From: a virus
IMG/VR virus record: IMGVR_UViG_3300050821_003357
Span: 1-64,000 of that record
Strand: one strand, 5' to 3'
Length of the DNA stretch: 64,000 nucleotides
Shown here: positions 9,188 through 48,386 of the stretch, piece after piece
How the letters are laid out: the number at the start of each line of letters is the position of its first letter
Numbering within the stretch: the stretch's first letter is position 1
Program-made: the position numbers and the translations under genes
Notes under the pieces: generated by a model
Seen by the model: the letters and a program-made list of their open reading frames with translations, nothing else
What the model was told of the DNA's origin: nothing
The model's database searches: none

Positions 9188-9364
9188 ATGAAGTGGCTGC
9201 GCGCGCGTCTAGCTGAGCCGTCGACCTATGGCGGGCTGGCGGGGCTGTGCATGATGGTCGGGATGTGGTCCTTCACGTTCTGGCCGCACTGGCGGCTGAT
9301 GATCTACGCGGCGGGAGTGTTGTTCATCGTCCAGGCGATCAAGGCTGAGCGCGGCGGCAAATGA
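9188..9364 (+). CDS. Small membrane protein, two TM segments
   Basis: 58 residues starting MKWLRARLAEPSTYG, with hydrophobic stretches at about 14-30 and 36-52. Looks like the short holin-like membrane proteins of phages. ATGA overlap with the beta-helix gene. Confidence 0.65.
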   Translation: MKWLRARLAEPSTYGGLAGLCMMVGMWSFTFWPHWRLMIYAAGVLFIVQAIKAERGGK

Positions 9365-18541: not shown

Positions 18542-20500
18542 ATGCTGAATATAGTCTGCGTCAAACACGGTTCGTTGTATGGCGCAGACTATGTCAATCG
18601 GCTGTATGCGATGGTCGCCCGCAACCTGACGGCAGGGCACGAAGGCCGGTTCATCTGCTTTACCGACGATGACGCGGGCATCAGGCAGGAAATCCACTGT
18701 CGGCCATTGCCGAAAGGGATCTTAGGCTGGTGGAACAAACTCGCTCTGTTCGCGCCGGGCGAGTTCGAACGGCACGACCGCATCCTGTATTTCGACCTTG
18801 ATACGGTGATGGTCGGAGATCTCGACGAAATCGCGCGATATGACGGTGAATTCGCCATTCTGCGGGACTTTTACAGAGAGGATGGATGGCAATCATCGGT
18901 AATGGCATGGAAGTCCGGATTTGGTGCCGAGATCTGGCAGCGCTGGAACCGCGAGGGCCGCCCGGAAGCCGATGGCGGCGATCAGGAATGGATTGAGCAT
19001 GTTTTCAAAAACAAATGGCCAGTAATCCAGCCCGAAATCCTGCAAGATCTCTACCCTGGGAAGTTTGTCTCCTATAAGCGCGACTGCATCCCGTATCCAC
19101 CTGAAGGCGCGAGTGTGGTGGTCTTCCACGGTGAGCCCAAGCCGCACGATTGCGGGCGCTCCTGGGTCGAGGCGATGTGGACCGAGAGCGATACCGGGCA
19201 TTTCCAGCTGGCGATGATCCCGAATATCCCGCTTGAGCAGATCAGAAAGCAGGCCAAGCATTCCGCTACGCTGGGGCTGCCGCGCCTTAAATCACAGCCG
19301 GCCAATCAAGGAACCGCTTCGCCATTTATCGGCAAAGTCGCCATTATTGGCGGCGGTCCGTCCATTGGCGATCCGGTCATTCAGGCTGAGTTGTCGCTAC
19401 TGCGCTCCAAAGGGTTCGCGATCTGGGCGCTCAACGGCAGTTATGATTGGCTGCTCGATCGCGGCCTCGTAGCTGACGCGCACGTGCTGCTCGACGCGAG
19501 ATATGACAACCTGAGATTTCTTCGTAATTCCGAGCCGGAAACGACTTATTACCTCGCTTCGATATGCAGCGGCTTTGTTTATGACGAGCTAATCACACAG
19601 GGCCGGAAAATCGTCCGCTTCGATCTGGATGTGATGGGCGATTGCGGAACTACGGTAGGCACGCATGCCATTGCCGTGGCATTTACCGAGGGTTTCCGGG
19701 AAATCCACCTATACGGGTACGACAGCTCATACCGAGGGGACGCCGGGCATGCCTATGAACAGGCGCTGAACGGCGAGGAGCGGATTGTCGATGCGCATGT
19801 CGGGGATCGGACCTTCCGAGCGGCACCGTGGATGGTGCGGCAAGCGCAGGATTTCGACGGCTTGGCGGCTGCGATCGTTAGCGCCGGAGGAACGATCGTC
19901 GTTCATGGCGACGGGCTGCTTCCGTATGTCGCGCAGCAGATGGCGGCACCGCGATGGGCAGAGGTCCGCGCGGCAGAAGTGCTGAAGCGTCTTCCTGCCG
20001 GCCCTGTACGTGGCGCTGAGATTGGCGTGTTCTGTGGCGGGATGTCTGCCGCACTACTGCAGCGACCCGATCTCGATCTGTTGATGGTCGATAGCTGGGA
20101 AGGCGATGGGAAAGCATATTTGTCCGAAAGCGGCGATTGGCATGCGAAGCTGAGCCGTGATGAGCAGAATAGCTTTATGAAGATTGCGAGTCGCGCCGTC
20201 GACTTTGCTGGCTGCCGAGCAACAATCCGACGCGTCAGATCTCGAACACAGGCACGATCGATAGGTATAGAACGGCTAGACTTTGTCTTCATTGATGCGG
20301 ATCACTCATACCAGGGGTGTAAGGCTGACATCGTGGCATGGGCACCAAGGATAAAGCCCGGCGGCCTATTGTGCGGGCACGATTACGACAATCCGGATTT
20401 CCCCGAATTCGGGGTGAAGCGCGCAGTCGATGAGTACGCCGCCACGACTGGCCGTCAAGTGGAACTCGGCGCCAACCTGACGTGGTTCATCCGACTCTGA
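18542..20500 (+). CDS. Three-domain glycosyltransferase / MptE-like / SAM-methyltransferase protein
   Basis: 652 residues. Domain 1 (1-240) is GT-A/GT8-like with RILYFDLDTVMVGDL; D85-x-D87 would bind metal and nucleotide sugar. Domain 2 (about 260-440) begins KVAIIGGGPSIGDPV and contains GDCGTTVGTHAI, like DUF115/MptE-like proteins linked to glycosylation. Domain 3 (about 485-652) is a class I methyltransferase (GAEIGVFCGGMSAALL, LDFVFIDADHSYQG, PGGLLCGHDY). Encoded between coat and tail genes, it may modify glycans on the capsid or host surface; substrate unknown. Confidence 0.8.
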   Translation: MLNIVCVKHGSLYGADYVNRLYAMVARNLTAGHEGRFICFTDDDAGIRQEIHCRPLPKGILGWWNKLALFAPGEFERHDRILYFDLDTVMVGDLDEIARYDGEFAILRDFYREDGWQSSVMAWKSGFGAEIWQRWNREGRPEADGGDQEWIEHVFKNKWPVIQPEILQDLYPGKFVSYKRDCIPYPPEGASVVVFHGEPKPHDCGRSWVEAMWTESDTGHFQLAMIPNIPLEQIRKQAKHSATLGLPRLKSQPANQGTASPFIGKVAIIGGGPSIGDPVIQAELSLLRSKGFAIWALNGSYDWLLDRGLVADAHVLLDARYDNLRFLRNSEPETTYYLASICSGFVYDELITQGRKIVRFDLDVMGDCGTTVGTHAIAVAFTEGFREIHLYGYDSSYRGDAGHAYEQALNGEERIVDAHVGDRTFRAAPWMVRQAQDFDGLAAAIVSAGGTIVVHGDGLLPYVAQQMAAPRWAEVRAAEVLKRLPAGPVRGAEIGVFCGGMSAALLQRPDLDLLMVDSWEGDGKAYLSESGDWHAKLSRDEQNSFMKIASRAVDFAGCRATIRRVRSRTQARSIGIERLDFVFIDADHSYQGCKADIVAWAPRIKPGGLLCGHDYDNPDFPEFGVKRAVDEYAATTGRQVELGANLTWFIRL

Positions 20501-23549: not shown

Positions 23550-24347
23550 ATGGTGCGTGTTTTCTTGATGGCGGCTGCATTTGTTGCCGTGTTCGGCATA
23601 TCCAATGCTCAAACCATCACCATCGGCGAGACCAATAGACTTGGAATTGACGACTCCGCCAATGCGGGATATCTGCTTGCCGAAGGGCCGTTCAATCTGT
23701 CTCAGCAAGCGACAATAAATAGCCTGTCCTTCTATGTCGGCAGTGTATCCGGCAATCTGCGGCTTGGCATTTATACCGCCGGGACCAATAATGATTGTCA
23801 CGGTGGGACGCTTGAAGCGCAGACTAATTCGGTGTCCACGTCAGGACATGCCAATAGCTGGATCACTGCAAACGTAGTAACGCCCGTGCAATTGCCTGTG
23901 GGTAATTACTGTTTGGCTTACGAGCAAAGCAGCAATAGTCTTCACTCCGTCAAAGGCATGACGCAAGGTGTTGGAGATTATTGGTACACTCATAGTTACG
24001 GTACTTTCCCATCAACGTTCTCGTCGTCGCTCGGCGGACCTGACGGTTATCATTGGTCGATCTATGGGACACTTACTCCGGTGCAGCAGCAGCCTACGCT
24101 GTCACTTTCGTTCAGTCCCGCCAGTCCAAGCATTCCGTACACTTCATCCTTGGGCACCGCCGTCGCGCAGATTGTGCCTGCATGGAGTGACGGGAGCCAG
24201 TTCACCGGCACAGTCGCATTTGCCTATCCATATTTCAGCGACGGCGGCTGTTTTTCGATAGACGGCAGCTTGAACCTAATTACCGCGTGCTCTCTGTCCA
24301 GCGACGGCAATACCGTCCAGAACGTAACTGTCACAGCCAACCAATAA
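23550..24347 (+). CDS. Exported protein with C-terminal Ig-like module
   Basis: 265 residues. Sec signal peptide 1-20 (cleavage after ISNA). Jelly-roll-like region 21-180, then an Ig-like module (SFSPASPSIPYTSSLGTAVA ... VQNVTVTANQ) that recurs at the C-terminus of the 43517-46264 product. Probable surface/receptor-binding component; the signal peptide is atypical for a virion protein. Confidence 0.65.
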   Translation: MVRVFLMAAAFVAVFGISNAQTITIGETNRLGIDDSANAGYLLAEGPFNLSQQATINSLSFYVGSVSGNLRLGIYTAGTNNDCHGGTLEAQTNSVSTSGHANSWITANVVTPVQLPVGNYCLAYEQSSNSLHSVKGMTQGVGDYWYTHSYGTFPSTFSSSLGGPDGYHWSIYGTLTPVQQQPTLSLSFSPASPSIPYTSSLGTAVAQIVPAWSDGSQFTGTVAFAYPYFSDGGCFSIDGSLNLITACSLSSDGNTVQNVTVTANQ

Positions 24348-24358
24348 AGATGAGACAA

Positions 24359-26365
24359 ATGAAACGGATTGCTTTAGTCAGCATACTGCTGGCATTCCCC
24401 GGACTCTTGTGGGCGGCGACGGCAACCAAAAATCTTGCGATCAACATTACCGGAGCCGGCATCCCGACTTACACCTACAATTTCACGACCGGCGCGTGTA
24501 CGCCAAGCAATGGCGCTTCCGCTACGAACTGCATTGCCGGCAGCATGACGGCCGGCGTCTGCAATGGCACGACGGCGCAAAACGACGCGGCACTGAACAG
24601 TTTCAATGACGAAGCGCAAAAGCATACGCGCCCAGCCCAGACGGGATACAGCGGTGGTGGGACGCAGCACAACAACCAGAATGGCGACGGCAATGCTTAT
24701 GCCGACGCCAATATCACCAATCAGATCGTGCTCAACTTTCCGGCGTGCAATAAATTCGCCTATACCTATCCGCTGTTTCCGACCGGGATTAGAAATGTAA
24801 GCATCGTGGGGGCTGGGTCGGGTTCGACTGTATTCCAGAACCTGAATACGGCCGGACACCCTTACACATCGAATGCGATCATTTCCGCTTGGGACTTTTT
24901 CGGGGATACTTTCTATGGGCAGCCGGCCTACGGGACGATCATCAATTCGCCTTACGGTTCCGACGAATATGGCCACCTAATCAATACAGCCAACGCTGGC
25001 GCCACGACCGTTACGCTGACCGAATCCACGTTTGCTTCGGAATATTTTGTCGGGCGGTGGGTCATGATCATGTCCTACGTCCAGGACAGCTCCGGGTCCT
25101 ACCCGCCGAACATGCGATATTACGATTTCGGAGTGGTCACGGCCGTCAATCTCTCAACCGGCGTCATCACCCTTGATCCGACCACGATGTATCAGGGCAC
25201 CGGACTGCGGTTTACCCATCTCGGCTGTGCGGCAGTCGCGGGATGCACCGCCCGGCCATACAACCTGAACACATTGAGCGATGCGGCGGTGACGGCCAGT
25301 GCGATCGGAGCGGGCCAAGTCGGGCCGGCGCGGATTGTTCCGATCGATACCCCGCAGAAGCCGATGGCGGTAACTTACAATCTGCAGGGGATACACTTCC
25401 TGCACAACCCGACACTATCGCCGCCGACAAACCCGGTGGCTCCGTGCAATGCGTCGGGCATCTATCCGGCATGCTGCGCGGCTACTGATGGACCGGTTTT
25501 CCAGGGCACCGTCAATGGAACCGGCAGTGACCTGATCATGGAATGCACGATGGAAAGTGCTAACCTGATCAATCTTACGCTGTCCAACAGCTCGTTCTTC
25601 TATGAGGAGGCCGATAAGAACATCGGCTCTGCGACTTACAACAACGTCACCGCCCTATTCTCATTGTTACATAGTGGCGATCTGCTATTTCACGCCGCGG
25701 GCGGGAATCTAGGTGGCAACGGCTCCGCGAACGGTGGCGAGGTAACTTGCGCCGCGTTCGTCTGTCAGTTTGACGGTGGTGTGATTTTGAGCGCTGCGGT
25801 TGCCGGAAACAATCCTGATATTCAGCTCGATCGCCCAAACTTTACCGACCAGATCATCGTGAACGGCGCGGCCTTTCACGGCAGCAATTCGCTCGGCAAC
25901 ACGATGGTCAACTCCTCGGATGACACTCCCTACTCGGTGACGATCGGATCTGGCGGCGTTAGCTTTTCCGGGAATCGATTGACGGTCTCGAAGTGCAACA
26001 ATGCCCCTAGTGGTGGCGAGACCTGCTGGGACATGGAAGATTGCAGCCAACCGGCGTGCAAGGTGATCGATTACTGGGGGGATGGTGGCGCGTTGATCAC
26101 GAATGGCACGATGAACACAGGCGTCACGGTCTCGTCCATGACCGGAGATGCCACGCATATTTATGTCGATTTCAGCGGGACGCCGGCCTTCGCGAATGGG
26201 CAGGTGGTGGCGGTGGGGCGGGTGCGCTCGGTGAGCGTGACGAATTCTACGGCGAGCAGCATCGGCAACAGCTGTGTGCCGGCCTCCGGCCCGAATAATT
26301 GCCTGCGCTATCCGACGCACGTGAACATCCCCAGCGTTACTTGGTCCGGAAATACAGGTGGTTGA
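24359..26365 (+). CDS. Exported beta-helix (tailspike-like) protein
   Basis: 668 residues from ATG 24359 with signal peptide MKRIALVSILLAFPGLLWAA; earlier in-frame starts lie within the preceding gene or lack the signal. GIRNVSIVGAGSGSTVFQNL and later repeats of short beta turns suggest a right-handed beta helix as in pectate-lyase-like tailspikes. Many paired cysteines fit periplasmic export. Substrate unknown. Confidence 0.65.
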   Translation: MKRIALVSILLAFPGLLWAATATKNLAINITGAGIPTYTYNFTTGACTPSNGASATNCIAGSMTAGVCNGTTAQNDAALNSFNDEAQKHTRPAQTGYSGGGTQHNNQNGDGNAYADANITNQIVLNFPACNKFAYTYPLFPTGIRNVSIVGAGSGSTVFQNLNTAGHPYTSNAIISAWDFFGDTFYGQPAYGTIINSPYGSDEYGHLINTANAGATTVTLTESTFASEYFVGRWVMIMSYVQDSSGSYPPNMRYYDFGVVTAVNLSTGVITLDPTTMYQGTGLRFTHLGCAAVAGCTARPYNLNTLSDAAVTASAIGAGQVGPARIVPIDTPQKPMAVTYNLQGIHFLHNPTLSPPTNPVAPCNASGIYPACCAATDGPVFQGTVNGTGSDLIMECTMESANLINLTLSNSSFFYEEADKNIGSATYNNVTALFSLLHSGDLLFHAAGGNLGGNGSANGGEVTCAAFVCQFDGGVILSAAVAGNNPDIQLDRPNFTDQIIVNGAAFHGSNSLGNTMVNSSDDTPYSVTIGSGGVSFSGNRLTVSKCNNAPSGGETCWDMEDCSQPACKVIDYWGDGGALITNGTMNTGVTVSSMTGDATHIYVDFSGTPAFANGQVVAVGRVRSVSVTNSTASSIGNSCVPASGPNNCLRYPTHVNIPSVTWSGNTGG

Positions 26366-29337: not shown

Positions 29338-30999
29338 ATGACGCAACAATCCGGTTCGCACCGCGAATTTTACGAGCGGGAATTCCGGGGATACGTCAAG
29401 CTATCGGGACCGGCCGGGTTCGGGGCGGTCCAGGCGGTTACGCCGAAGCAATCGACGCGACAGGCGACGGTCCAGGAATGGCCGTTCGATCGCGGTGGGT
29501 ATGCGGGGTTCCTGAAGCCGCCGATCGCGTATGGGGCGGCTCAGGCGGTTACACCGCTGCAAGCGGCGCGAGCGAATGTAGCGCAGGAGCAGCCCTGGCA
29601 TCCGCCGGCCACGACTGCGGGGCCGCTGATCCCGGCAAGCGCCGCTCGCCCGCTACAGGCTACCAAAACAGCGGTTCCCCAGGAGTGGCCATGGCATCCG
29701 CCACCAACGCTAACAGCGCCCTTCCCGGTCAGCGCCGTTACGCCGCTGCAATCCGCCACAGCTCAGACTACGCAGGAGCTACCGTGGCATCCTCTGCCAT
29801 CGACATGGCCGCCCTTTCCAGTCAGCGCAGTTCGCCCGCTACAAGGGAGCGCTACGAGGATACCGCAAGAGCAGCCTTGGCATCCGCTGCCTTGGGCGTC
29901 CGCGCCCTTCCCGGTCAGCGCGACTCTACCACTACAATCCGTCAAGGCGCAGACCACCCAGGAATGGCCTGGCTATCATCCGACGCCGTGGGTAACGCCT
30001 GCGTTTATCCCAACAACCGCGCCCATCTCCTTTGTCGGGCAACGCCAGGCGCAGATTGCGCAGGAATGGCCGTGGCATCCTACACCCACGACCGCGAGCC
30101 CGTTCCCGGTCAGCGCGGCTCTGCCGTTGCAAGCCGCGAGCCTGCGTGTCACCCAGGAGTGGCCGTGGCATCCAGCGCCGTGGGCAACATGGCCGCTCAT
30201 CACCGAGCCGTCCGGCAGCTTCGTTCCGCAGCCGCAGGCGCGGACGCAGCAGGAATGGCCGGGCTATCACCCAACGGCGAATCTGCCGACGCCGCTCATC
30301 CCCGGCAATGTGGGGCCGCCGCTACAGGGTCTCAGCGCTCGCACGACGCAAGAGTGGCCAGGTTATCATCCCGCCCCCACCACGTCGTGGGGATCGTTCG
30401 CCGCGCCATTCACATTCCCGCTTATTGGCTATTCGATCGTCAGGCAAGAATGGCCAGCTCACCATCCAGCGCCGACAACGCGCGGCCCGTTCCTTCCGAA
30501 AATCACCTTCCCGCCGTTCCCTCTTCCCGGCGTGGCGAGAACGACTCTCGAATGGCCGGGGCATCATCCGTCGCCATTCCTGCAGGGTTCCTACAACTAC
30601 ACCCCCGGCACGGCTGTCATCTTCTCAGGTGGGCCGGTATGGGCAATCACCAATCGGAGCGGCGCTGGCGGCACAGCTTCAATATCCATCGGAACGGGGC
30701 CAAACATGACCTATCAGACCCGGCTCCGGTCGATGTACCTGGTGGTCTCGGGAGGTTCGGCGGGCGCGGCCACAGCGGTTGTGCGCGACGGCCTGGCCAG
30801 TAGCGGGCCTATTATCTTCCAGGCCGATCTTTCTACCGCAGCCAATAGCTGGGACTTCCTGGATTTCAACGAGATCGACCTGCGCGCAACGGCTGGTCAT
30901 ATTTTAACGGTTGAGTTCCAAGCCGGCACGCCCGGCGACTTCCAGGAGGTCAACGCTGAAGGAGACTTTGTGGCTCCTGGAACCCTGTACGGAGTATGA
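29338..30999 (+). CDS. Trp/Pro/His tandem-repeat protein with C-terminal beta domain
   Basis: 553 residues. Residues ~46-410 hold about 12 copies of a ~30-residue unit with core QEWPWHPxPT...PFPVSA..PLQ. Variants QEQPWHP, QEWPGYHP and LEWPGHHP occur. A C-terminal domain of ~140 residues (GGPVWAITNRSGAGGTA ... FVAPGTLYGV) is paralogous to the whole next protein. Position before tail hub genes suggests a fibre or whisker. No Shine-Dalgarno; probably coupled to upstream translation. The ATGA overlap at its end confirms the frame. Confidence 0.75.
   Translation: MTQQSGSHREFYEREFRGYVKLSGPAGFGAVQAVTPKQSTRQATVQEWPFDRGGYAGFLKPPIAYGAAQAVTPLQAARANVAQEQPWHPPATTAGPLIPASAARPLQATKTAVPQEWPWHPPPTLTAPFPVSAVTPLQSATAQTTQELPWHPLPSTWPPFPVSAVRPLQGSATRIPQEQPWHPLPWASAPFPVSATLPLQSVKAQTTQEWPGYHPTPWVTPAFIPTTAPISFVGQRQAQIAQEWPWHPTPTTASPFPVSAALPLQAASLRVTQEWPWHPAPWATWPLITEPSGSFVPQPQARTQQEWPGYHPTANLPTPLIPGNVGPPLQGLSARTTQEWPGYHPAPTTSWGSFAAPFTFPLIGYSIVRQEWPAHHPAPTTRGPFLPKITFPPFPLPGVARTTLEWPGHHPSPFLQGSYNYTPGTAVIFSGGPVWAITNRSGAGGTASISIGTGPNMTYQTRLRSMYLVVSGGSAGAATAVVRDGLASSGPIIFQADLSTAANSWDFLDFNEIDLRATAGHILTVEFQAGTPGDFQEVNAEGDFVAPGTLYGV
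29473..30570 (+). repeat. Coding tandem repeat array, ~90-bp unit, ~12 copies
   Basis: Each unit encodes a QEWPxHP-type heptad followed by ~23 Pro/Ala-rich residues. Copies differ by many substitutions, so the array is not recent. A second frame stays open by the repeat composition and is not taken as a gene. Confidence 0.85.
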
Positions 31000-31376
31000 C
31001 GTGGCAAATGACGACCCGCGGGGTAGCGGGCGCGGCAGCCTCGATCGCCGTGGCGACGGGACCAAACAGCACCTATCAGACGCGGCTGCGGGCGATGTAT
31101 TGCACGCTCTCAGGAACCAACGCCGGTAGCGGGACGCTGGTCGTGCGGGACGGCGCGACGGGCGTAGGCGCGATCATCTTTGAAGCGACCCTCAGCATAC
31201 CTGTGAACAGCCGTGACCTGATCAACCGAACGGACCTTGACCTGCGCGCAACGGTGGGGAATCTGCTGACGATCGAGTTCCTTGCCGGCACGACAGCGGA
31301 TTTTCAGTCAATCAACGCTCAGGGAGATTATGTGCCGCCAGGGACACCCTATGGTGCGACGGCGCTCGGCGAATGA
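30996..31376 (+). CDS. Paralogue of the repeat protein's C-terminal domain
   Basis: 126 residues. ATGPNSTYQTRLRAMYCTLSG and TLDLRAT-type motifs (DLDLRATVGNLLTIEFLAG; GDYVPPGTPYGA) align with the end of the previous protein (GTGPNMTYQTRLRSMYLVVSG, EIDLRATAGHILTVEFQAG). Tandem duplication of a beta-sandwich domain. ATGA overlaps on both sides. Confidence 0.7.
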   Translation: MTWQMTTRGVAGAAASIAVATGPNSTYQTRLRAMYCTLSGTNAGSGTLVVRDGATGVGAIIFEATLSIPVNSRDLINRTDLDLRATVGNLLTIEFLAGTTADFQSINAQGDYVPPGTPYGATALGE

Positions 31377-38379: not shown

Positions 38380-38576
38380 CGCCTCCGTGCCGTAGGGCCG
38401 CCACATACCCAATCGATGAGCCGTAGCACGATCCAGGGGATGCCGAATAAGACGAACAGCGCATTTGGATCGGACAGCATACCTGCAATTGCCTCGCGAC
38501 CATTCAGGCAGAAGAAGAATAGAGAAAGAAGAGCCGCCCAGAAAATGGCGATGCGGTCGGCCCAAATAAGTTTCAT
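38211..38576 (-). CDS. Small membrane protein
   Basis: 121 residues from ATG 38576, which overlaps the stop of the upstream gene (ATGA). Two hydrophobic segments (IAIFWAALLSLFFFCL; LFVLFGIPWIVLRLIDWV). The Ala/Gly/Arg-rich tail lies antisense to the ejection gene and may be an unconserved extension. Confidence 0.55.
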   Translation of the reverse strand: MKLIWADRIAIFWAALLSLFFFCLNGREAIAGMLSDPNALFVLFGIPWIVLRLIDWVCGGPTARRRYAPPRARNWASDGVMGTDAGDPAGTGARGMGCGAGTNAGTRRYALLLPKAGVGED

Positions 38577-38836
38577 TGGCAATAGATATAGTTGCCGAAC
38601 GGCTGACACGTCACGGTCCTACCGTTGGGAATATAGCTTTGCGGATACTGGCCGCTGTAGGAAGGCTGATAGGTCTGGGCCGGATAGCCATGCTGCATGT
38701 TGTAGCGCTGCGCCTGGCCGTTCTGGTAGCCCTGAGAAAACGCGCCGAGTCCAGTGAGTGCCGTTATCCATCCTTGGGCATGGGCGGCTGATGTGACGAG
38801 GCAAAGACCAAATACGGCGGCGGCTGTGTACTTCAT
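38573..38836 (-). CDS. Small exported protein
   Basis: 87 residues with Sec signal peptide MKYTAAAVFGLCLVTSAAHA, then Gln/Tyr-rich mature part with one cysteine pair. A 5-bp hairpin (38849-38863) lies before the AGGAAA ribosome site. Leftward, unlike its neighbours; a possible lysogenic-conversion gene. Confidence 0.65.
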   Translation of the reverse strand: MKYTAAAVFGLCLVTSAAHAQGWITALTGLGAFSQGYQNGQAQRYNMQHGYPAQTYQPSYSGQYPQSYIPNGRTVTCQPFGNYIYCQ

Positions 38837-38916
38837 GAGAAGGTTTCCTACGGTTCACCCGTAAGTAGCACGGCGAATCGGTTCGTCAATCCGTCCAAAT
38901 CAGGAACAGAGATGAA

Positions 38917-39285
38917 ATGATGTTGCGCGCGCTGCTCGCGGCCTGCGTCCTGCTGATGTCGCCCGTCGCCGATGCGGCGCAACTCTACGGTCCCGCATCT
39001 AATTGTTCGGGCGCCATCGGGGTAACGCCGGCAAATATCACTTTCCCGACATCGGGAACGGGAGCGACCGCGCCGGCCGATTATCTGCTCATTCAGAACA
39101 ATTCGATCAACGGCCAGGTCATCTGGATCAATGATTTGGGCAGCGTAGCGACGACGGCCCCGCCGTCCATTCAGTTGGTTCCGACCGCCAGCGTGACCTA
39201 TTCATCGGCATATTATCCGATGCCGCCATCGATCTCGATAGTCGCCTCTGCCGCAGGCGCTGTTTATACCTGTCATTACAAATGA
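38917..39285 (+). CDS. Exported small beta protein
   Basis: 122 residues, signal peptide MMLRALLAACVLLMSPVADA. Mature region is Ser/Thr/Ile-rich with two cysteines. First gene of a nine-gene rightward run of exported products, ATGA overlap with the next. Confidence 0.7.
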   Translation: MMLRALLAACVLLMSPVADAAQLYGPASNCSGAIGVTPANITFPTSGTGATAPADYLLIQNNSINGQVIWINDLGSVATTAPPSIQLVPTASVTYSSAYYPMPPSISIVASAAGAVYTCHYK

Positions 39286-40211
39286 AGGTTTGGGTTCTGG
39301 TGGTCGCCCTGCTGTTGATAGGGACGCCCGCCAAGGCTCAGCTCAATTCGCAGATTTCCGGAAGCGGCTCAATAAACGGCTTAGTATCGGGAACAGGATT
39401 AGCGCCCGGTGCTGCGGCTTTCAATCTGGGGCCAGTTACAGGCGATCTCGCCGGGACATGGCCTAACCTCGGTCTAGCCGTTGGCTCGGCCTCCCGCAGC
39501 GTCGGCAATCTCGGTGTCTGTCTCGGGGGCACATTACCCAATCCGACCTCGCTGGCGGCATCGTGCGTGCTCGGTGCTCTCGGGACGCCAGCGGGAGACC
39601 TTGGGGGCGCTACTTATTCGGCACCGCTCGTCACTGGCTTGCAGGGCTTTCCGATAGCGTCAGGGATACCCCCTACGCTCAATAGCGCTCTGACGTGGAA
39701 CGGATCCAACTATGTGCCGGTCGTACAGGCGCCGGGCATCAACCAGCTCACTGGCGCAATCTCTGCGGGGCCTGGCACGGGAGCGCAAGCCTCGTCTCTC
39801 AATGCTGGGGTGGTGACTAACCAGAACCTCGCCCAGGCCCCGGCAACAACGTTCAAATGTAATGCGGGAGCCGGACCGGCGACACCGACCGATTGCCCAG
39901 TAACAGGCGGCATCGCCTTTATGGGTGGCGCCCTTCAGCTCGCTTCCAACTTGGGCACCTCGCAACAAACAACCGTGGGATCGAGCTGCTGGACGATCCA
40001 AAACGGCATCGTCTCATCGATCGTCTCGGGGAGCTGTTCGTCCGGCGTCGTACTGACGGCCGACGATGGCGTTACGCCTCTGACTGCGGATGACGCCGCC
40101 ACTCAGCTTACCGCTGACGGCGGCACTCCCGGAAGCGCGTGCGGTGCATTGCAGGCCAAATTCACCGTCCCATGCAATGCGGCAATAGTGATGAATTTTC
40201 GAGGACTCTAA
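39282..40211 (+). CDS. Exported tail-fibre-like protein
   Basis: 309 residues, signal peptide MKVWVLVVALLLIGTPAKA. PVTGDLAGTWPNLGLAVG resembles repeated units of phage tail fibres. Cysteines occur in pairs in the C-terminal part. TAATG overlap with the next gene. Confidence 0.65.
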   Translation: MKVWVLVVALLLIGTPAKAQLNSQISGSGSINGLVSGTGLAPGAAAFNLGPVTGDLAGTWPNLGLAVGSASRSVGNLGVCLGGTLPNPTSLAASCVLGALGTPAGDLGGATYSAPLVTGLQGFPIASGIPPTLNSALTWNGSNYVPVVQAPGINQLTGAISAGPGTGAQASSLNAGVVTNQNLAQAPATTFKCNAGAGPATPTDCPVTGGIAFMGGALQLASNLGTSQQTTVGSSCWTIQNGIVSSIVSGSCSSGVVLTADDGVTPLTADDAATQLTADGGTPGSACGALQAKFTVPCNAAIVMNFRGL

Positions 40212-41128
40212 TGATGAGAACGCTTTTCCGCTCTTTGGTTGCGAGCTTGATGTTGCTAGCGCCAAGCGCAGCTATAGCGGGAACCTGCAATCCATTTCCG
40301 ATGCTCGATGCAAGCGGTGTCGGCAACGTCAATTTCAAGACCGCTACTGACGGCAGTTCCAACTGTTTCGGCTTCACAGGCTTAGTCGACAGCACGGGCG
40401 CAAACGCCATTCCTGCGGTCGCGGCGCTGGCGGACGCCACAGCTAATCCGACCGATGCGCTCTTCGGTAGCCTGAATTTCGGCTACAACGGCACGACTTG
40501 GGATCGCTTACGGACAGTCGGCACCGGCGTCCTCAAAACCGATATGTCCTCGATTGCCGCCACAGCGACGGCGACCGGGCACGGTGTATCCGGAGCTGGC
40601 GTGCAGCGCGTGGAACTGCCGACCGATGGAACCGGCGTGGTCGGCCTCAATGCCGGCGCGAATACTATCGGCAATGTGGGGCTCGTAGCTGGCTCCGCAC
40701 TCGTCGGTAAGGTCGGCATTGATCAGACGACGCCCGGCACGACCAATGCCGTTCAAGCCATCGCAGGTTCGACTGGTGGAACGAGCGTCTTTTCCAAGAT
40801 TGTCGCCAACAACACCACGTCATTCGCCGTCGACGCCTCAGCAGGCACGCTCTACGCCATCTCGGCCTTCTCAATCAGCAACACCACTCCCGCTTTCGTG
40901 AAAACGTTCAATACCGCACAGGGATCTGTGACGTGCGGGACCACTACGCCAGTCGATCGCATGGTCATCCCGGCAAACCAGACGCAAGGCGCCGGCTTTA
41001 TCTGGAGTGTGCCGGTCGGCGTGGCCTATGGCACTGCCATTACAGCGTGCGTGACCGGGGGCATTGCGGATGCCGACACAACTGCTCCAGCGGCCAGTAC
41101 GTTCCTAGTCTCCTTCTACTACAAATAG
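40211..41128 (+). CDS. Exported virion-like beta protein
   Basis: 305 residues from ATG 40211, signal peptide MMRTLFRSLVASLMLLAPSA. LNFGYNGTTWDRLRTV and KVGIDQTTPGTTNAVQ are patterns common in phage structural proteins without signal peptides. The upstream in-frame extension is rejected because the signal starts at 40211. Confidence 0.65.
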   Translation: MMRTLFRSLVASLMLLAPSAAIAGTCNPFPMLDASGVGNVNFKTATDGSSNCFGFTGLVDSTGANAIPAVAALADATANPTDALFGSLNFGYNGTTWDRLRTVGTGVLKTDMSSIAATATATGHGVSGAGVQRVELPTDGTGVVGLNAGANTIGNVGLVAGSALVGKVGIDQTTPGTTNAVQAIAGSTGGTSVFSKIVANNTTSFAVDASAGTLYAISAFSISNTTPAFVKTFNTAQGSVTCGTTTPVDRMVIPANQTQGAGFIWSVPVGVAYGTAITACVTGGIADADTTAPAASTFLVSFYYK

Positions 41129-41138
41129 CGAGGAAGAA

Positions 41139-41414
41139 ATGAAACCTCTCCTGACAGTTGCGGCGGCGCTATTGTTTTGCGCTGCTGCGCATGCCGGACC
41201 CGTCAGCAAGCCGTGCAATCCCTGCGGCGACGATGTCGTGGCGGGGATGATTGAGGATCTTCAGCAATTCGGGTGGTGGCAGATGGTCCCAAACGGTGAC
41301 GACCCAAACGATGAAACATACAGGAAATTCATCATTGGTGCCTTGTTCAGTCTGCGGTCGCGCGTGCCGCCCGGCAAATTCGAATACGTCATCAAGCAGT
41401 TGGATGGTGAATAA
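41139..41414 (+). CDS. Small exported protein
   Basis: 91 residues, signal peptide MKPLLTVAAALLFCAAAHA, then KPCNPCGDD and a helical C-terminal half. No family recognised. GAGGAAG ribosome site. Confidence 0.65.
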   Translation: MKPLLTVAAALLFCAAAHAGPVSKPCNPCGDDVVAGMIEDLQQFGWWQMVPNGDDPNDETYRKFIIGALFSLRSRVPPGKFEYVIKQLDGE

Positions 41415-41887
41415 TGAAGACTTTAGCGGCCATTCTGGCTTTCTGCGTCGCCCTCTCCGCTGGAGCGCATGCTCAGCAGGTCACGACACAAGTTCTGAAT
41501 CTCGGCCCAGTCGCCCTTACGACAGGCTCCACGGTAACAGTTCCGCCAACCGGCGGGGCTTCAGCAAACGGGTACACCGCGATCCAGCTAACGTTGCAGC
41601 TTCCGCTTGCTGACAAGCTGGCTGTGGGAAACACCCTCTCTCTGGAGGCGGACGTTTCCACGGATGGTGGTGCTACCTTCAATTATGTGGCCTCGACGAG
41701 TTGGACTTCCTATGGCCCGGCCGGCGTTACGCTTCACTTACCGGGCGGCCGAACCATAGTCAATCCAGATCCGTTTTTGGGAATTGGCGTTGGTGTGAAC
41801 GGGATAACCACCTCGCTTTATCGGATTAAGTATCAAACGAATAATCTGACTACGGCTACGCCAATCGTGACGGGGTTCAAAGACTGA
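41414..41887 (+). CDS. Exported beta protein
   Basis: 157 residues, signal peptide MKTLAAILAFCVALSAGAHA. LSLEADVSTDGGATFNYV suggests a beta-sandwich of the kind seen in phage baseplate/fibre accessory proteins. Overlaps both neighbours by 1 bp. Confidence 0.6.
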   Translation: MKTLAAILAFCVALSAGAHAQQVTTQVLNLGPVALTTGSTVTVPPTGGASANGYTAIQLTLQLPLADKLAVGNTLSLEADVSTDGGATFNYVASTSWTSYGPAGVTLHLPGGRTIVNPDPFLGIGVGVNGITTSLYRIKYQTNNLTTATPIVTGFKD

Positions 41888-42606
41888 TGTTTCGCCGAGT
41901 ATTTATTGGCCTCTTACTAGCGGGACTCTGTAGTGGGGCGCATGCTGCGAACATTGTCTTTTCCGGCGCGGCGGATTTGGGAAATGCAGGTGGTCCGATC
42001 TCTACATCTTATACCGTTGGAACTGGCCAAAACAGAATATTGGTGCTTTGCGCGCTAGACGATACCGCTCACGGCCACACCGCTACGTATGGCGGCGTAG
42101 CCCTGACTGGTCCGGTCGCTGTAGATGCTAACCAAGCTCAGGAGCTGTATTATCTGCTAAATCCGGCTTCGGGGTCCAATACATTGACTTTTACGGACAA
42201 TGTATCAGGAATCAGTTTCAATCAAGTAATTGTAGCTGACTACTATAACGTTAAGCAAACAGGACAGCCTGACGGAACGGGCTTTGCAGACGACACAGGG
42301 ACCAACGACACGTTTTCGGGCGGCTTCACGACAACGCAGGCCGGGGCGTCGGTGGTCGCATGCGCAAGCAACTCCGGCAATGGCACGGCACCTACAGTCA
42401 GCGGGGTAAATTTCACGCTGCGAACCTACGCCGCACAATTCGGCGACACACTGATAGCTGATCACGGTTCAAAAGCCCCAGCCGGGGGGGTGACACTAAC
42501 AGCGACAATCCACAACGGCGGCTTTAAGCAAGGCCAGTCGTTTCTTTCTCTTATCCCCGTTCCCAGTGGCGGCTCGCTCATGATGACCGGAGTAGGCAAT
42601 CAATGA
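41887..42606 (+). CDS. Exported beta-sandwich protein
   Basis: 239 residues, signal peptide MFRRVFIGLLLAGLCSGAHA. The mature part has the pattern of the 26722-27441 protein (SNTLTFTDNVSGISFNQVIV then DYYNVKQ). So the same module occurs once without and once with an export signal. Confidence 0.65.
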   Translation: MFRRVFIGLLLAGLCSGAHAANIVFSGAADLGNAGGPISTSYTVGTGQNRILVLCALDDTAHGHTATYGGVALTGPVAVDANQAQELYYLLNPASGSNTLTFTDNVSGISFNQVIVADYYNVKQTGQPDGTGFADDTGTNDTFSGGFTTTQAGASVVACASNSGNGTAPTVSGVNFTLRTYAAQFGDTLIADHGSKAPAGGVTLTATIHNGGFKQGQSFLSLIPVPSGGSLMMTGVGNQ

Positions 42607-43520
42607 ACATGCGTGGACTCTTCATAGCGACGGCGGTTGCTACGGTCGGTGTGGGTATCCCGCTGGTGGAGGCTACCGAGGATTTCAAGACATTCTTCGG
42701 TGGATTGACTAGCGCATCTACGCCGCTCGGGTCCGGAGATGGGGTTATCGTCCTGCAAGGCGGGGCCGACAAAAAGATCCCAGGCAACTCCCTAGTCACT
42801 CTTTCAGATTCTCAAACCCTTACGAACAAAACAATTCCGTCCAGCAATAACATTACGGTCAACGCGGCGACCCAGCTTATTAACCAAGTGCAGCCCGGCA
42901 ATGGCGGGCTGGGCATAGCCTCTGGCCCAGTGGGTGGGGGTGCCGTATTATGTAATACCGCGACAACCACCTACGCCTTCTCCTCAGTCCTAACTGCCAA
43001 CCTTCCGGTGATCGGCGGCGGCGCGGGGGCGTGTCCCGGCCTCGGATCGGTAACAGGCAACACATCCAAGTTCGTCACCAATACCGGTGCGAACACGACG
43101 GGGCAGGGCGGCAGTTGGGATGCCAATGGAAATTGGGTCAACAACGCAAATGCGGTCTTTACCAATGTCGCGCAGTCCTTTACCGCGCAGCAAACCTTTG
43201 CCTCGACGATCGGCACGCAAAACAATCAGTCAGGTACGACTTACACGCTGGCGTCGACCGACTGCGGCAAGACGGTATACTTCACGTCGTCTAGTCCGAT
43301 AACGGTTACGTTACCAGCCACCCCGCCCGTTCCATGCACAGCGCAACTCGAACAGGGCGGCGCGGGGCAGATAACTACTATTCCGGCGGTGGGCGCGACT
43401 GGGCCGAGCAATCCGCATGGATTCACCAAAACCTTTGGGCAATACGCCGTCATCACTGTGTTTGTCGATACCAACTCAGGCACCAATGGGCACTGGATTC
43501 TGACGGGTGACGGCGCATGA
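42603..43520 (+). CDS. Tail-fibre-like protein, probably exported
   Basis: 305 residues. N-terminus MRGLFIATAVATVGVGIPLV is hydrophobic, with possible cleavage after VEA. VTLSDSQTLTNKTIPSSNNI is a classic tail-fibre repeat, and the C-terminal domain (GKTVYFTSSSPITVTLP) is typical of fibre tips. Confidence 0.65.
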   Translation: MNMRGLFIATAVATVGVGIPLVEATEDFKTFFGGLTSASTPLGSGDGVIVLQGGADKKIPGNSLVTLSDSQTLTNKTIPSSNNITVNAATQLINQVQPGNGGLGIASGPVGGGAVLCNTATTTYAFSSVLTANLPVIGGGAGACPGLGSVTGNTSKFVTNTGANTTGQGGSWDANGNWVNNANAVFTNVAQSFTAQQTFASTIGTQNNQSGTTYTLASTDCGKTVYFTSSSPITVTLPATPPVPCTAQLEQGGAGQITTIPAVGATGPSNPHGFTKTFGQYAVITVFVDTNSGTNGHWILTGDGA

Positions 43521-46264
43521 GATGGCGACTGGCACTATGCCTGATCGCTTGCACATTTCCTGCCTCGGCTCAGCTTTTCAACATCGCCAGTTTCGATGCG
43601 AGGCCGGGCGAGACGACCTTCGGCAATGGCGGCCAGCCTTGGCCTATCGGCACCATCAATGCCGAGAATTACGATACGGCCGTTAAGCCGGGGATCGCCT
43701 TCAACGTACCGAACAGCAATACCCTTCCCGCCTGTCAGGCAACCACGTATCGATCTGATGCCGCCAATCTTCAAACGTCGAGTGATGGACCGGCCTTCCA
43801 AATCGGCTGCGCTGTTACCGGGACTTGGTATCAGTATATCATCAACATTCCGACGCCATCTCCGTGCCCTTGCAAGGTGACTCCACGCCTCGGCAGCCCA
43901 TCAGCGGGAGGCTCATGGGCGTTTTATATCGATGACACGCTGATTGGTGCGGTCGCTACACCGAATACCGGCAGTTATACGACCATGCAGGGCGTCGATT
44001 CCGCTCCTTTCAATCTTGCGTCAGGCAATCATACGGTGCGGTGGCAGTGGGCGAGCGGCGACGCCAACGGTTATGCCGGCTCGATGAGTTCGTTTCAATT
44101 CCCTGGCATCGGCGGTGGCCTGTTGCCGGCTGATCGTGATGCAATCGCTAATTGGAAAATGGCCGGATTGCTTTCGATTGGCGGCATTCCGAGTCGTTCA
44201 TCGGTATGTGCCACGCTAAGCCCTAGCGGCGGAGACGACGCGGCACCCATTCAGAGCGCCATCAATAGCTGCGCAGCCAATGGCGTCGTGATGCTCAACG
44301 CCGGTACTTTCAATCTCAATAGCGCATGCGTCAATGTGAACAAGAACATCGTACTTCGAGGCGCTGGCGCAGGGCAAACGATACTGGCGGTGACCAACGG
44401 CTCGATCCTGGGTGACTTTCACAGCAATGGTCACAATGGTTGTGTGGTCGCGGTTGGCGGCGGCGGCACAATTTCCAACACGACGAATCTCACGGGTGAC
44501 GGTGTGCAAGGTGCCTTTTCGGTCAATGTTGCAAGCACCTCCGGAATCTCGATCGGTAGCCTAGTCCTCGTGGACGAACTCGGCATTGGGCAGGCGATGC
44601 CAGATGTCGCCATGAACGGCGGCACAGGTCAAGTATGGGCCTCCCCTGATTATCGGGTGGAGTGGAACGCTCACAGTCCTGGCACCGCAGTTGATAGCTC
44701 ATGCGTCTATGGAACGAACAATTTTTCGTGCGGCACGAACGGCGATGAGTGCGCCTACAGCATCCGTTGCGGCGGGGTAAATGAAGAGCTTCATTTGGTT
44801 TCCGCGATCAACGGCAATACCATTACCTTCGACTCACCACTGACGCTGTCCTATCGCACTGCCAATACGGCGCAGGTTCATGTCTACTCGCCATCGACCA
44901 TTGTGCAGCAGGCCGGAATTGAGAATCTCACGATGTGGGGCGGCGACCAGGGCAATCTCACCTTTGGTGCTTGCGTTTACTGCTGGAACAAAAACATCGA
45001 GAGCTATCAGTGGCTCAACCAAGGCGGCATCTATTTCGGCCGCGCCGCATTCCGCGATCAGGCGGACACATGCTGGGTCCACAATGCCGCGTGGCCGGTC
45101 AATGGCGGCGGCGGGTACGCGATCAACCTGACCTTTGGTGCGTCCGAGGAGTACATCACCAACTGCGTTTCGATGCTCGCCAACAAGGTTATCGTCATGC
45201 GGGCCTCGGGCGCCGGCAGCGTCGTCGCCTACAATTATATGGACGATGGATATATCAACGGGAATTCCGGCTGGGTCGAAACGGGCCTGAACTGCAGCCA
45301 CTTGGTGGGCAGTCATCATGCGCTATTCGAAGGCAACCAGTCGTTCAACATCGACTCCGATTTTACACATGGGGCCAGCCCCTACTGCACCTATTTCCGT
45401 AACTACATCACCGGAATCAGAGAGACGTTCACTGGGCTCGATGGCGTGGTACGCAACGACAGTGCCGGGTGCTGCGGCCCACAGCGGGCGCTGGCGTCGC
45501 ATCCTTATACCTATTGGACCTCATTTATTGGAAACATCGCTGGAACGCCTGGAGTGACGACCGCTGGTCATGGCTGGGTTTATAGCGACAACGGCACCGG
45601 CAACGGCAATTCCGGCGCTTCGTCGATCTTGAAACTGGGATGGAACGATTTCAATCTCAATACCTCACAAGGAGGCCCTAGCCAGCCCGATAATGTGGCC
45701 AATACAATATATCCGGCTACGCCATCTGGCGTGACCGCGTCTGGATGCTTGGCTGATGCCGATCCTTGCACGACCATCGTCGATGGGAATTACGATTACC
45801 AGACGAATTCTATCCATTGGGCCTCGAATGATATTGCGCACACCCTGCCAAATTCGTTCTATCTGACTGGGACACCGTCATTCTTTGGCTCCTCTACATG
45901 GCCGCCTGTCGATCCGATTAACGCTACCGTCTACAACATCCCGGCACATGCCCGTTGGGAGGAGTGCCAGCCGAGTCCAACGGCGGCGTGTGTATTAGCG
46001 CCAGGTTTCATGACATTGACTGTAACTCCGGCGAGTCCGTCCATTTCGTCTGGGGCGGCGCTAGGCAGCACGGTTGCCACGCTTAGCGTCACATGGTCAG
46101 ACGGCCATCCCTTCTCCGGCACATTTGGATTTGCCGCGCCCAATTTCGACGATGGAGGAACCTTCGCGATCTCGGGAAGCAATGTAATCGTCAAGCCGGG
46201 CGGCACTGGCGTCGCTAGGGATGGCGGCACAATTCAAAACATCACCGTTACGGCTACTGAATGA
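43517..46264 (+). CDS. Exported CBM6-like + pectate-lyase-3 beta-helix + Ig-like protein
   Basis: 915 residues. Signal peptide MRWRLALCLIACTFPASA. Residues ~20-195 look like a CBM6/35 carbohydrate-binding module (TINAENYD, GGSWAFYIDDTLIG, VATPNTGSY). Residues ~235-780 start with GGDDAAPIQSAINSCAANGV, the pectate lyase 3 entry, and continue as a beta helix. The last ~85 residues are an Ig-like module shared with 23550-24347. Likely polysaccharide-binding and possibly cleaving. Confidence 0.75.
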   Translation: MRWRLALCLIACTFPASAQLFNIASFDARPGETTFGNGGQPWPIGTINAENYDTAVKPGIAFNVPNSNTLPACQATTYRSDAANLQTSSDGPAFQIGCAVTGTWYQYIINIPTPSPCPCKVTPRLGSPSAGGSWAFYIDDTLIGAVATPNTGSYTTMQGVDSAPFNLASGNHTVRWQWASGDANGYAGSMSSFQFPGIGGGLLPADRDAIANWKMAGLLSIGGIPSRSSVCATLSPSGGDDAAPIQSAINSCAANGVVMLNAGTFNLNSACVNVNKNIVLRGAGAGQTILAVTNGSILGDFHSNGHNGCVVAVGGGGTISNTTNLTGDGVQGAFSVNVASTSGISIGSLVLVDELGIGQAMPDVAMNGGTGQVWASPDYRVEWNAHSPGTAVDSSCVYGTNNFSCGTNGDECAYSIRCGGVNEELHLVSAINGNTITFDSPLTLSYRTANTAQVHVYSPSTIVQQAGIENLTMWGGDQGNLTFGACVYCWNKNIESYQWLNQGGIYFGRAAFRDQADTCWVHNAAWPVNGGGGYAINLTFGASEEYITNCVSMLANKVIVMRASGAGSVVAYNYMDDGYINGNSGWVETGLNCSHLVGSHHALFEGNQSFNIDSDFTHGASPYCTYFRNYITGIRETFTGLDGVVRNDSAGCCGPQRALASHPYTYWTSFIGNIAGTPGVTTAGHGWVYSDNGTGNGNSGASSILKLGWNDFNLNTSQGGPSQPDNVANTIYPATPSGVTASGCLADADPCTTIVDGNYDYQTNSIHWASNDIAHTLPNSFYLTGTPSFFGSSTWPPVDPINATVYNIPAHARWEECQPSPTAACVLAPGFMTLTVTPASPSISSGAALGSTVATLSVTWSDGHPFSGTFGFAAPNFDDGGTFAISGSNVIVKPGGTGVARDGGTIQNITVTATE

Positions 46265-47766
46265 GGGCGTTCCTTGCTCTTGTGGCGGCGGTTCTATTGT
46301 CGGGCGGCCTTCTCGTAGCGGTCGGCGTGCATGGCCAACTGCTCAATCTCACCCATTCGAGCAAGACAGCCGAGCAGAGCTTTGGAAACGGCTCCCCCAG
46401 CCAGCCATGGCCGAGCACATCGACAATTAACGCCATCAACTACGACATTGGCGGCTCAGGCATTGGCTACATCAGCCCCGTCACAGGCTGCCTCAATTCC
46501 AGCTCATATCGACCTGACACGGTAAACTTCAAAACCTCTACCGCTGGAGCGCCATATGTGCTGGGCTGCAGCACTCCGGGTATCGCATATAAATACACGA
46601 TCAACATTACCGGAACCGGCCCATTCACGATAACGGCGAATCTTGCCGATACGTCGGCGGGAGGATCGTGGGGCGTATCAATGGACGGAACCTCTATAGG
46701 TTCGATAGCTACGCCCAACACCGCAAGTTTCACCACATTCCAAGGCGGTACGTTATCGGCTCCGTTCAATGCGACGGCGGGGAACCACACGCTGCAATTT
46801 ACCTCGCTGGGCGGGGATGCATTGTTCAATGGCTCAGGTGACTTCCTGTCATTCCAAGTATCGCAGGCTACCGGTGGCGGCGGCATCGCCTGCAATATCG
46901 GCCCAAACTATACCGGAACCATTCCGGCGGGAGCTGTGGCTGCCGGGTTTACCCATTGCGCCGCGAATTTCGATTTCGGGCAAGCGCAGTTTAGCAATCC
47001 TGCGAATTGGCTGGACTGCGCGGGCGCTTCGACACCGATATTTTTCTTTAATAACCAAAGCGGGTCTGCCCCATGTGGTAGCGCCGTGTCTGTAGTGACA
47101 GATAGCAGCGGCGGCGGCCAAAAGGCTCTTGATATGCACTGGGATCCATCGTGGCAACCATTTAGTGAGATAGACCCGGAGCAGTTGTTTCCAGAGGGGG
47201 TGTATATCGACTGGATTATGAGATATTCTTCATCGTATTTAACTGCGAATAGCCTTGAGACGCTAATCGGCAGCATCTACTCGGAAAGTGGCAACTGTTG
47301 CACAGTTAATGCGTATGAGTGGGATCTTGACGAGCAGGCCATCAAACCAAGCCAACCGAGTCTTACATTTGGGTACACAGCAACCCACCCGGTCCAATGG
47401 CCGCTGTTGATAGTCCCAAACGGAGTGCCCGTAGCATTCAACACAATCAGCAATTTTAATCCCACGATCTATCAAAATTACGGCGTCAGGATCACGACCG
47501 ATGGGAATATCGCATGGTCAATGTGTAATTATTGGAACGGTCAATTTGAGAGCTGCGACAATTGGAATGCGCCTTGGCAAATCGCGGCAGCAGATCAGCT
47601 CAATCGATGGAAGATCCAGGTTGGCCCCCTTTCGTCTACGTTAAACAACGGGACTGCGTATGACGCGTTTTGGCAAAGAGTGACCTTCTGGACCTGCCCC
47701 GCATGGAGCCCTTCGAGCCAGCTTACCCAGTGTAATAACAATCCTACCAAGTCGGGGGCGCCGTGA
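46261..47766 (+). CDS. Exported CBM6-like protein with possible GH16-type domain
   Basis: 501 residues, signal peptide to about residue 25. CBM6-like module ~30-200 (TINAINYD, GGSWGVSMDGTSIGSIATPN) paralogous to the previous protein. The C-terminal ~290 residues are Trp/Cys-rich with E353-W-D355-L-D-E358, which fits the ExDxxE catalytic pattern of GH16 beta-glucanases in a lectin-like fold. The GH16 call is tentative. Confidence 0.6.
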   Translation: MRAFLALVAAVLLSGGLLVAVGVHGQLLNLTHSSKTAEQSFGNGSPSQPWPSTSTINAINYDIGGSGIGYISPVTGCLNSSSYRPDTVNFKTSTAGAPYVLGCSTPGIAYKYTINITGTGPFTITANLADTSAGGSWGVSMDGTSIGSIATPNTASFTTFQGGTLSAPFNATAGNHTLQFTSLGGDALFNGSGDFLSFQVSQATGGGGIACNIGPNYTGTIPAGAVAAGFTHCAANFDFGQAQFSNPANWLDCAGASTPIFFFNNQSGSAPCGSAVSVVTDSSGGGQKALDMHWDPSWQPFSEIDPEQLFPEGVYIDWIMRYSSSYLTANSLETLIGSIYSESGNCCTVNAYEWDLDEQAIKPSQPSLTFGYTATHPVQWPLLIVPNGVPVAFNTISNFNPTIYQNYGVRITTDGNIAWSMCNYWNGQFESCDNWNAPWQIAAADQLNRWKIQVGPLSSTLNNGTAYDAFWQRVTFWTCPAWSPSSQLTQCNNNPTKSGAP

Positions 47767-48386
47767 CTTGGCAGCAAGCGGGATTTGGGCTGTTTGCCGT
47801 CGCGATCATCTGTGAGCAAGCGCATGTCGCCTCCCCTATCGTTCTAGCGTGGTCGCATCCGAAACTTCGGCAGGTAGCCTTGTCGCAGCCGATTGAGAGC
47901 CTACTGTTGCCAGCGCTTGCGATCGTCGGGGCATTGCTCAGCCCGTTCTGGCTGATCTTTTGGGTTTACTACGTTTGGAATATCTATCACTTCGGCGCGC
48001 AGCACTACGGCGTCGCCTGCCTCATCGGCTGGCGTGTTCCGCGCTGGGTATGTGTTGGCGGCACAGCCGTGCTCATGGCCGGCGTACCGATGCTAACCGA
48101 TGCCACATGGTGGCGCTGGCTTGCGCTGGTGGCGCTCGACTTCAACCATTGGCTCGTCGATCTCAGTCTGTCGAGCCGTGTGTCGCGATGCTGGTGGCTC
48201 TTTCTTGCGGCTGTTCTGGGGCTCGGCTGCATCGGATTTGCATGGAAGATCCCGCGCGCGGATCACATCGCGACCCTTGCCTTACCGATCGTGATCAAGG
48301 CGCGCTGGGGCGTCGGAATTGCTCACTTTCTCTATAGCCGCTGGGTCTGGAAGCGCGATGCTGCGTTCGGATGGATCGCACGATGA
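47763..48386 (+). CDS. Polytopic membrane protein with conserved-looking His motifs
   Basis: 207 residues, GTG start overlapping the previous stop (GTGA). Five to six TM segments. YHFGAQHYG, DFNHWLVD and GIAHFLYSRW place histidines at membrane borders, as in membrane metallo-enzymes. No family assigned. At the junction of the exported-protein block and the lysis cassette; could be a moron. Confidence 0.65.
   Translation: MTWQQAGFGLFAVAIICEQAHVASPIVLAWSHPKLRQVALSQPIESLLLPALAIVGALLSPFWLIFWVYYVWNIYHFGAQHYGVACLIGWRVPRWVCVGGTAVLMAGVPMLTDATWWRWLALVALDFNHWLVDLSLSSRVSRCWWLFLAAVLGLGCIGFAWKIPRADHIATLALPIVIKARWGVGIAHFLYSRWVWKRDAAFGWIAR

Follow-up and report, generated by a model that had tools for sequence, protein, structure and literature searches.

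In the phage DNA studied here, a row of nine genes encodes proteins that open with predicted signal peptides. We think it rather probable that most receptor-binding parts of the phage, an Mx8-like podovirus, are specified by this block and the genes at 9361, 23550 and 24359, and that the products are exported, disulphide-bonded and joined to virions at or after lysis. These parts would be fibres, spikes of beta-helix fold, proteins that bind carbohydrate and possibly others that cleave glycans. Assembly of tailed phages is generally held to be confined to the cytoplasm, whose reducing conditions do not favour the formation of disulphide-rich fibres, and exported fibres that join at or after lysis would be unexpected for them.

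The window, that is, the whole stretch of DNA analysed, comprises 64,000 of the 65,305 bases of IMG/VR record IMGVR_UViG_3300050821_003357. It belongs to a soil phage whose structural module is that of an Mx8-like podovirus, and in this module the following were recognised:

6270: terminase
10990: portal, 38% to the Mx8 portal
16942: capsid protein, 46% to that of Mx8
22216: adaptor
31373: neck-type protein
33320: phrog_6121 protein
34457 and 36823: ejection-type proteins

The nearest named contig, 11 kb long and from a Xanthobacteraceae MAG, has 80% capsid identity. Used as queries, 34457 and 43517 gave no match in cultured phages, the portal none in bacterial genomes, and 24359, 46261, one fibre of the relative G004 and the N-terminal region of the 9361 family none in the phages searched. 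For the relatives, genes and their start sites were predicted with a simple home-made program.

The ejection genes are followed by a gene on the minus strand (38573–38836), the nine-gene block (38917–47766) and a membrane protein gene (47763), and 3' of the latter lie small membrane, lipoprotein and lytic-transglycosylase genes. The block stands 3' of ejection-protein genes and 5' of lysis-type genes, which places it in the fibre slot; the same position was found in the relatives G001 and G004. It had been described in the initial annotation as nine consecutive, mostly overlapping genes, and this holds: the nine co-directional open reading frames overlap their neighbours by 1–4 nt, the sole gap being 10 nt before 41139. 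The third gene starts at 40211 or 40214, and with the latter start it lies 2 nt apart from the second.

38917–39285, plus strand: first gene of the block, 122 aa; predicted signal peptide MMLRALLAACVLLMSPVADA/A; 2 mature Cys; homologue in G001 (50%)
39282–40211, plus strand: 309 aa, fibre-like by inspection of motifs only (phage-fibre type motif GDLAGTWPNLGLA); predicted signal peptide ...PAKA/Q; 8 mature Cys
40214–41128, plus strand: 304 aa, no family; predicted signal peptide ...SAAIA/G; 4 mature Cys
41139–41414, plus strand: 91 aa, no family; predicted signal peptide ...AAAHA/G; 2 mature Cys
41414–41887, plus strand: 157 aa, no family; predicted signal peptide ...AGAHA/Q; 0 mature Cys
41887–42606, plus strand: 239 aa, with a non-significant phage minor-tail match only; predicted signal peptide ...SGAHA/A; 2 mature Cys
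42603–43520, plus strand: 305 aa, tail-fibre-like, SQTLTNKTI motif; weak signal peptide; 4 mature Cys
43517–46264, plus strand: 915 aa; predicted signal peptide ASA/Q; 24 mature Cys
46261–47766, plus strand: 501 aa, CBM6 (7.6e-11); predicted signal peptide; 12 mature Cys

Further candidates for export, and the region 5' of the block, are located as follows:

9361–10989, plus strand: 542 aa, tailspike-like, between terminase and portal; N-terminal signal or anchor; beta-helix; 12 mature Cys
23550–24347, plus strand: 265 aa; moderate signal-peptide score (4.0–4.5 depending on the start chosen); 4 Cys
24359–26365, plus strand: 668 aa, no database match; clear signal peptide ...LLWA/A; 18 mature Cys
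38573–38836, minus strand: 87 aa, divergent from the block; predicted signal peptide ...AAHA/Q; homologue in G001 (53%)
38837–38916: divergent intergenic region 5' of the block; part of it is conserved in G001, and a search for a sigma-70-like promoter found none

N-termini were scored with a home-made signal-peptide score that combines a positive n-region, a hydrophobic h-region and the -3/-1 rule. The score was 4.85–5.65 for eight genes of the block and 3.5 for 42603, while none of 127 non-gene open reading frames of at least 90 aa reached 4.5, by which chance is rejected as the source of these N-termini. Shuffled N-termini attained the real score in 0–1% of cases for the eight and in 8% for 42603. 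The predicted signals of the block have a canonical n/h/c structure with AxA sites; 9361 and 42603 are without a perfect cleavage site. By this score, the eight clear and one probable Sec signal peptides claimed initially are confirmed, prediction having succeeded for most of the genes, as are the export signals noted outside the block, clear at 24359, weaker at 23550 and anchor-like at 9361. The minus-strand gene at 38573–38836 was also picked out by the score. A use of signals as in SAR endolysins was rejected, the block having no lysozyme domain, and so was an origin as host genes at a prophage edge, as the block is embedded among phage structural genes and has phage relatives to either side.

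Proteins that fold in an oxidising compartment are expected to have their cysteines in pairs. Along the block the mature proteins contain 2, 8, 4, 2, 0, 2, 4, 24 and 12 cysteines, and those of 9361, 23550 and 24359 contain 12, 4 and 18, all even numbers; the terminase, portal, capsid and ejection proteins of the window have 0 or 1. We drew proteins from the window and from related and other phage records, and took as the signal-peptide set those that contain cysteine, are at least 100 aa long and have neither a lipobox nor a further transmembrane helix. Mature cysteine counts were even in 43 of 45 such proteins versus 299 of 491 other proteins with at least two cysteines (Fisher p=4e-7, or 2e-13 against all Cys-containing controls), p-values that are indicative owing to relatedness and incomplete independence among the records, although most of the proteins have no homology to one another. 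A similar relation was seen among 25 viral-contig relatives of the ‘TNKTI’ fibre module: those of marine type, without signal peptide, have no cysteine, and the three complete versions with signal-peptide scores of 4.1–5.0 (L074, L081 and L082) have 24, 12 and 12 mature cysteines. L079, with a weaker N-terminus, has 12. Taken together, signal peptides and even cysteine counts strongly support the predicted export of fibre-like and carbohydrate-active proteins.

Several of the mature parts had been described as resembling tail fibres or beta-helix and carbohydrate-binding proteins, and this stands for some of them. In 46261 a CBM6 was found, and its N-terminal module is common to 43517 (43% over 189 aa), in which it appears as a CBM-like module followed by a probable beta-helix, lyase-like middle and an Ig-like C-terminal domain; 43517 also matches a hyaluronate endo-lyase family, weakly and over a short local segment (5.6e-8). 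The C-terminal domain of 46261 is present in a signal-peptide protein of G002 as well. The 9361 family matched several PHROG tailspike and tail-fibre families (best 2e-18) and pectate-lyase/epimerase beta-helices. The C-terminal domain of 42603 is common to Gordonia phage minor tail proteins, the one examined having neither signal peptide nor cysteine. A carbohydrate-active content of 46261, 43517 and the 9361 family is thereby supported, by sequence comparison. For 40214, 41139, 41414 and 41887, family searches gave no informative match, and 39282 is fibre-like by its motifs only; similarity to fibre or spike families was found for the 9361 family and 42603, and most other block members had no such match. 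AlphaFold models of 9361 and 46261, built on three-row alignments, had mean pLDDT values of 41 and 32.

In 9361, G001 and L307, a common N-terminal motif with two conserved cysteines directly follows the signal, and the rest of the protein is replaced. A conserved N-terminus with a variable remainder was also seen in a tandem pair of G003 proteins, which share 79% over a stretch of 58 residues confined to the mature N-terminus. Both cases lie outside the block. As a separate observation, an Ig-like domain of about 70 aa, with two cysteines in most copies, stands behind signal peptides or a transmembrane helix at the C-termini of 23550–24347 and 43517–46264, in G001 (36247 and 30153) and in G016 (42316 and 23194).

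In G001, which has 89% portal identity, the same slot holds five signal-peptide genes, including ones of 1283, 397, 1525 and 617 aa, whose products are mostly unrelated to those of the window. In the G004 slot, five genes are of Sec type and a sixth has a Tat-type motif. Tat-type motifs (KRRDLIG, SRRDFVY, NRRDFIH) open large fibre-slot genes in G004 (38531–41371) and G014 (27188 and 23799).

By profile search, the N-terminal domain of the canonical fibre turned up in every Mx8-like record compared that has a fibre region, with five exceptions, its carriers including Mx8, a Bradyrhizobium phage, a Rhizobium phage and, weakly, a Ruegeria phage. The same search did not find it in the window, G001, G002, G004 and G005, some of these contigs being incomplete. 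G003 has a 138-aa version of the canonical fibre followed by signal-peptide genes, and its fibre-slot genes 48278 and 51037 are without signal peptide. Canonical fibre and exported-type proteins occur together in G014, G022, G031 and G019; a signal-peptide protein of G022, about 1000 aa long with 18 cysteines, has modules that also occur in canonical fibres, namely those of G016 (5e-11) and the Bradyrhizobium phage (3e-8). When fibre type was placed as a label on a capsid-protein tree, 7 changes were counted in all, 3–6 per label; the labels are rough, not every contig is complete, and signal-peptide genes do occur elsewhere in G015 and G016, which were labelled as canonical only. These changes suggest that exported fibres were repeatedly gained or lost. 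We give even chances to the wider proposition that export of fibres and spikes through Sec or Tat, with disulphide bonding in the periplasm and an extracytoplasmic final assembly step at or after lysis, is widespread among tailed phages and arose several times in Mx8-like ones.

Two cultured phages of the same virus superfamily carry a signal peptide on the canonical fibre itself. In Mx8 p64, annotated as hypothetical, and Mx9 p14, annotated as ‘putative tail fiber protein’, a predicted signal peptide replaces the Met-Pro start of the canonical fibre domain (p64 starts MRYLPSAAGLAVGVLLGVIISVSTPASA/TRNSVGTYTLPGGNPVVSGTTISS, its relatives MPRNGSGTYLLP...NPVV), and there are two mature cysteines. 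Where the window has a nine-gene block, these Myxococcus phages have a single canonical fibre accompanied by small exported genes. Canonical fibres and tailspikes of Mx8-like and P22-like podoviruses share with the block the slot after the ejection proteins and some modules, but have no signal peptide and few cysteines. In a different virus group, with baseplate genes next to the fibre gene, the tail fibre of Bcep781 and Bcep43 (gp49/gp48, phrog_33320) has a beta-helix homologous to 9361 (30%, 2e-10); Bcep781 gp49 has a signal peptide and an even number of cysteines (14 mature) as in the window, but it is a single exported fibre. Bcep781 is described as a virulent phage. PblA and PblB of Streptococcus phage SM1 are phage tail-type proteins that become cell-surface adhesins; unlike the window's proteins, they are without signal peptide and are freed via phage lysis functions, in a Gram-positive host. 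Searches of a literature library found no study of exported tail fibres, and the papers rich in mentions of signal sequences dealt with endolysins. The earlier statement that no such system had been described is therefore nearly right, apart from a GenBank remark on Bcep781 gp49 (‘possible tail fiber; possible signal peptide domain’).

A plausible course of events can be sketched. During infection, the N-terminal signal peptides would direct the newly made proteins to the Sec machinery of the host, or apparently to Tat for some proteins of G004 and G014; the signal would be cleaved, and in the periplasm the mature proteins would acquire disulphides. The cytoplasm would remain the place where heads and tail hubs are built. 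Once the inner membrane is breached, fibres and spikes would meet DNA-filled particles and bind the tail hub, so that the last assembly step would take place at or after lysis. Cleavage, export, disulphides, presence in virions and the timing of expression and attachment are all steps that we infer. P22 tailspikes and T4 long fibres are able to join finished particles in vitro, which makes late attachment physically reasonable. No known domain that would tie the mature N-termini to the tail hub was identified.

Of the two roles envisaged in the initial annotation, fibre assembly outside the cytoplasm fits better than adhesins secreted during lysogeny, because of the fibre slot, the replacement of the canonical fibre, the absence of a tyrosine integrase gene (PF00589 was not found in the record) and the signal peptides of Mx8 and Mx9. 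We regard as possible, though doubtful, that the products are secreted non-virion adhesins and polysaccharide-degrading enzymes that alter the host surface or matrix in a moron-like way, with domains borrowed from fibres and spikes. Signal peptides and even cysteine counts are expected here too, CBM6 and lyase-like beta-helix domains would suit such enzymes, and some relatives keep a canonical fibre as well. The number of gene products is large for one podovirus tail, and the conserved divergent gene and intergenic region 5' of the block could imply separate regulation. Bacteria also have exported glycanases of tailspike fold: WceF of Pantoea stewartii, exported by Tat, is a beta-helix trimer of that fold acting on polysaccharide (PMC7949094), although its gene is a bacterial one in a biofilm operon, outside any phage structural module. 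However, secreted proteins would leave the window, G001 and G004 without the usual receptor-binding protein, as no canonical fibre was found in them; in Mx8 and Mx9 the signal peptide sits on the fibre domain itself; the record yielded no tyrosine integrase; and Bcep781, which has such a fibre, is described as virulent.

It is improbable that the block is mixed, with virion fibres or spikes (for instance 42603, 9361 and 43517) beside small exported accessory or envelope-modifying proteins (38917, 41139 and 41414). The heterogeneous sizes (91–915 aa) and the lack of homology among most members would agree with this, but the genes form one coupled row and every Cys-containing member has an even count. 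Hardly probable at all is that the N-termini are non-working signals, hydrophobic segments retained by cytoplasmically folded fibres, for instance to oligomerise or to contact membranes, as the imperfect cleavage sites of 9361 and 42603 might suggest, given the canonical structure with AxA sites of the predicted signals, the high and even cysteine counts and the recurrence of one Ig-like domain after signal peptides or a transmembrane helix.

Should many soil phages export their fibres, virions could acquire fibres of other phages lysing nearby (phenotypic mixing), disulphide-stabilised fibres may suit a harsh soil, and annotations as hypothetical or as secreted bacterial proteins would miss receptor-binding proteins. 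Mx8 and Mx9 offer culturable systems for testing fibre export.

The window has other candidates for cytoplasmic fibres between adaptor and neck (29338, 26722 and 26368), so that the exported proteins may not be the sole fibres. Of these candidates, 29338–30999, which has repeats of QEWPWHP type and no cysteine, is a possible virion appendage. Copies of its C-terminal domain were found in 30996 and in G001 (27060); a weak signal peptide in 30996–31376 was treated as a false positive because the homologous 29338 has none.

Directly 3' of the block, 47763–48386 encodes a His-rich membrane protein with several transmembrane segments and no family match. It has counterparts at L054:2990–3709 and L048:5825–6559, and in G001 and the more divergent G002, too, such a gene adjoins those with signal peptides. 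Directly 3' of the capsid genes lies a glycosyltransferase-type gene (18542–20500; phrog_1962, the second match being a DNA-methyltransferase family). The capsid-adjacent slot of G003, G004 and G005 holds related glycosyltransferase-like and other sugar-enzyme-like genes, and the glycosyltransferase-type genes by the capsid possibly have a role in virion glycosylation.
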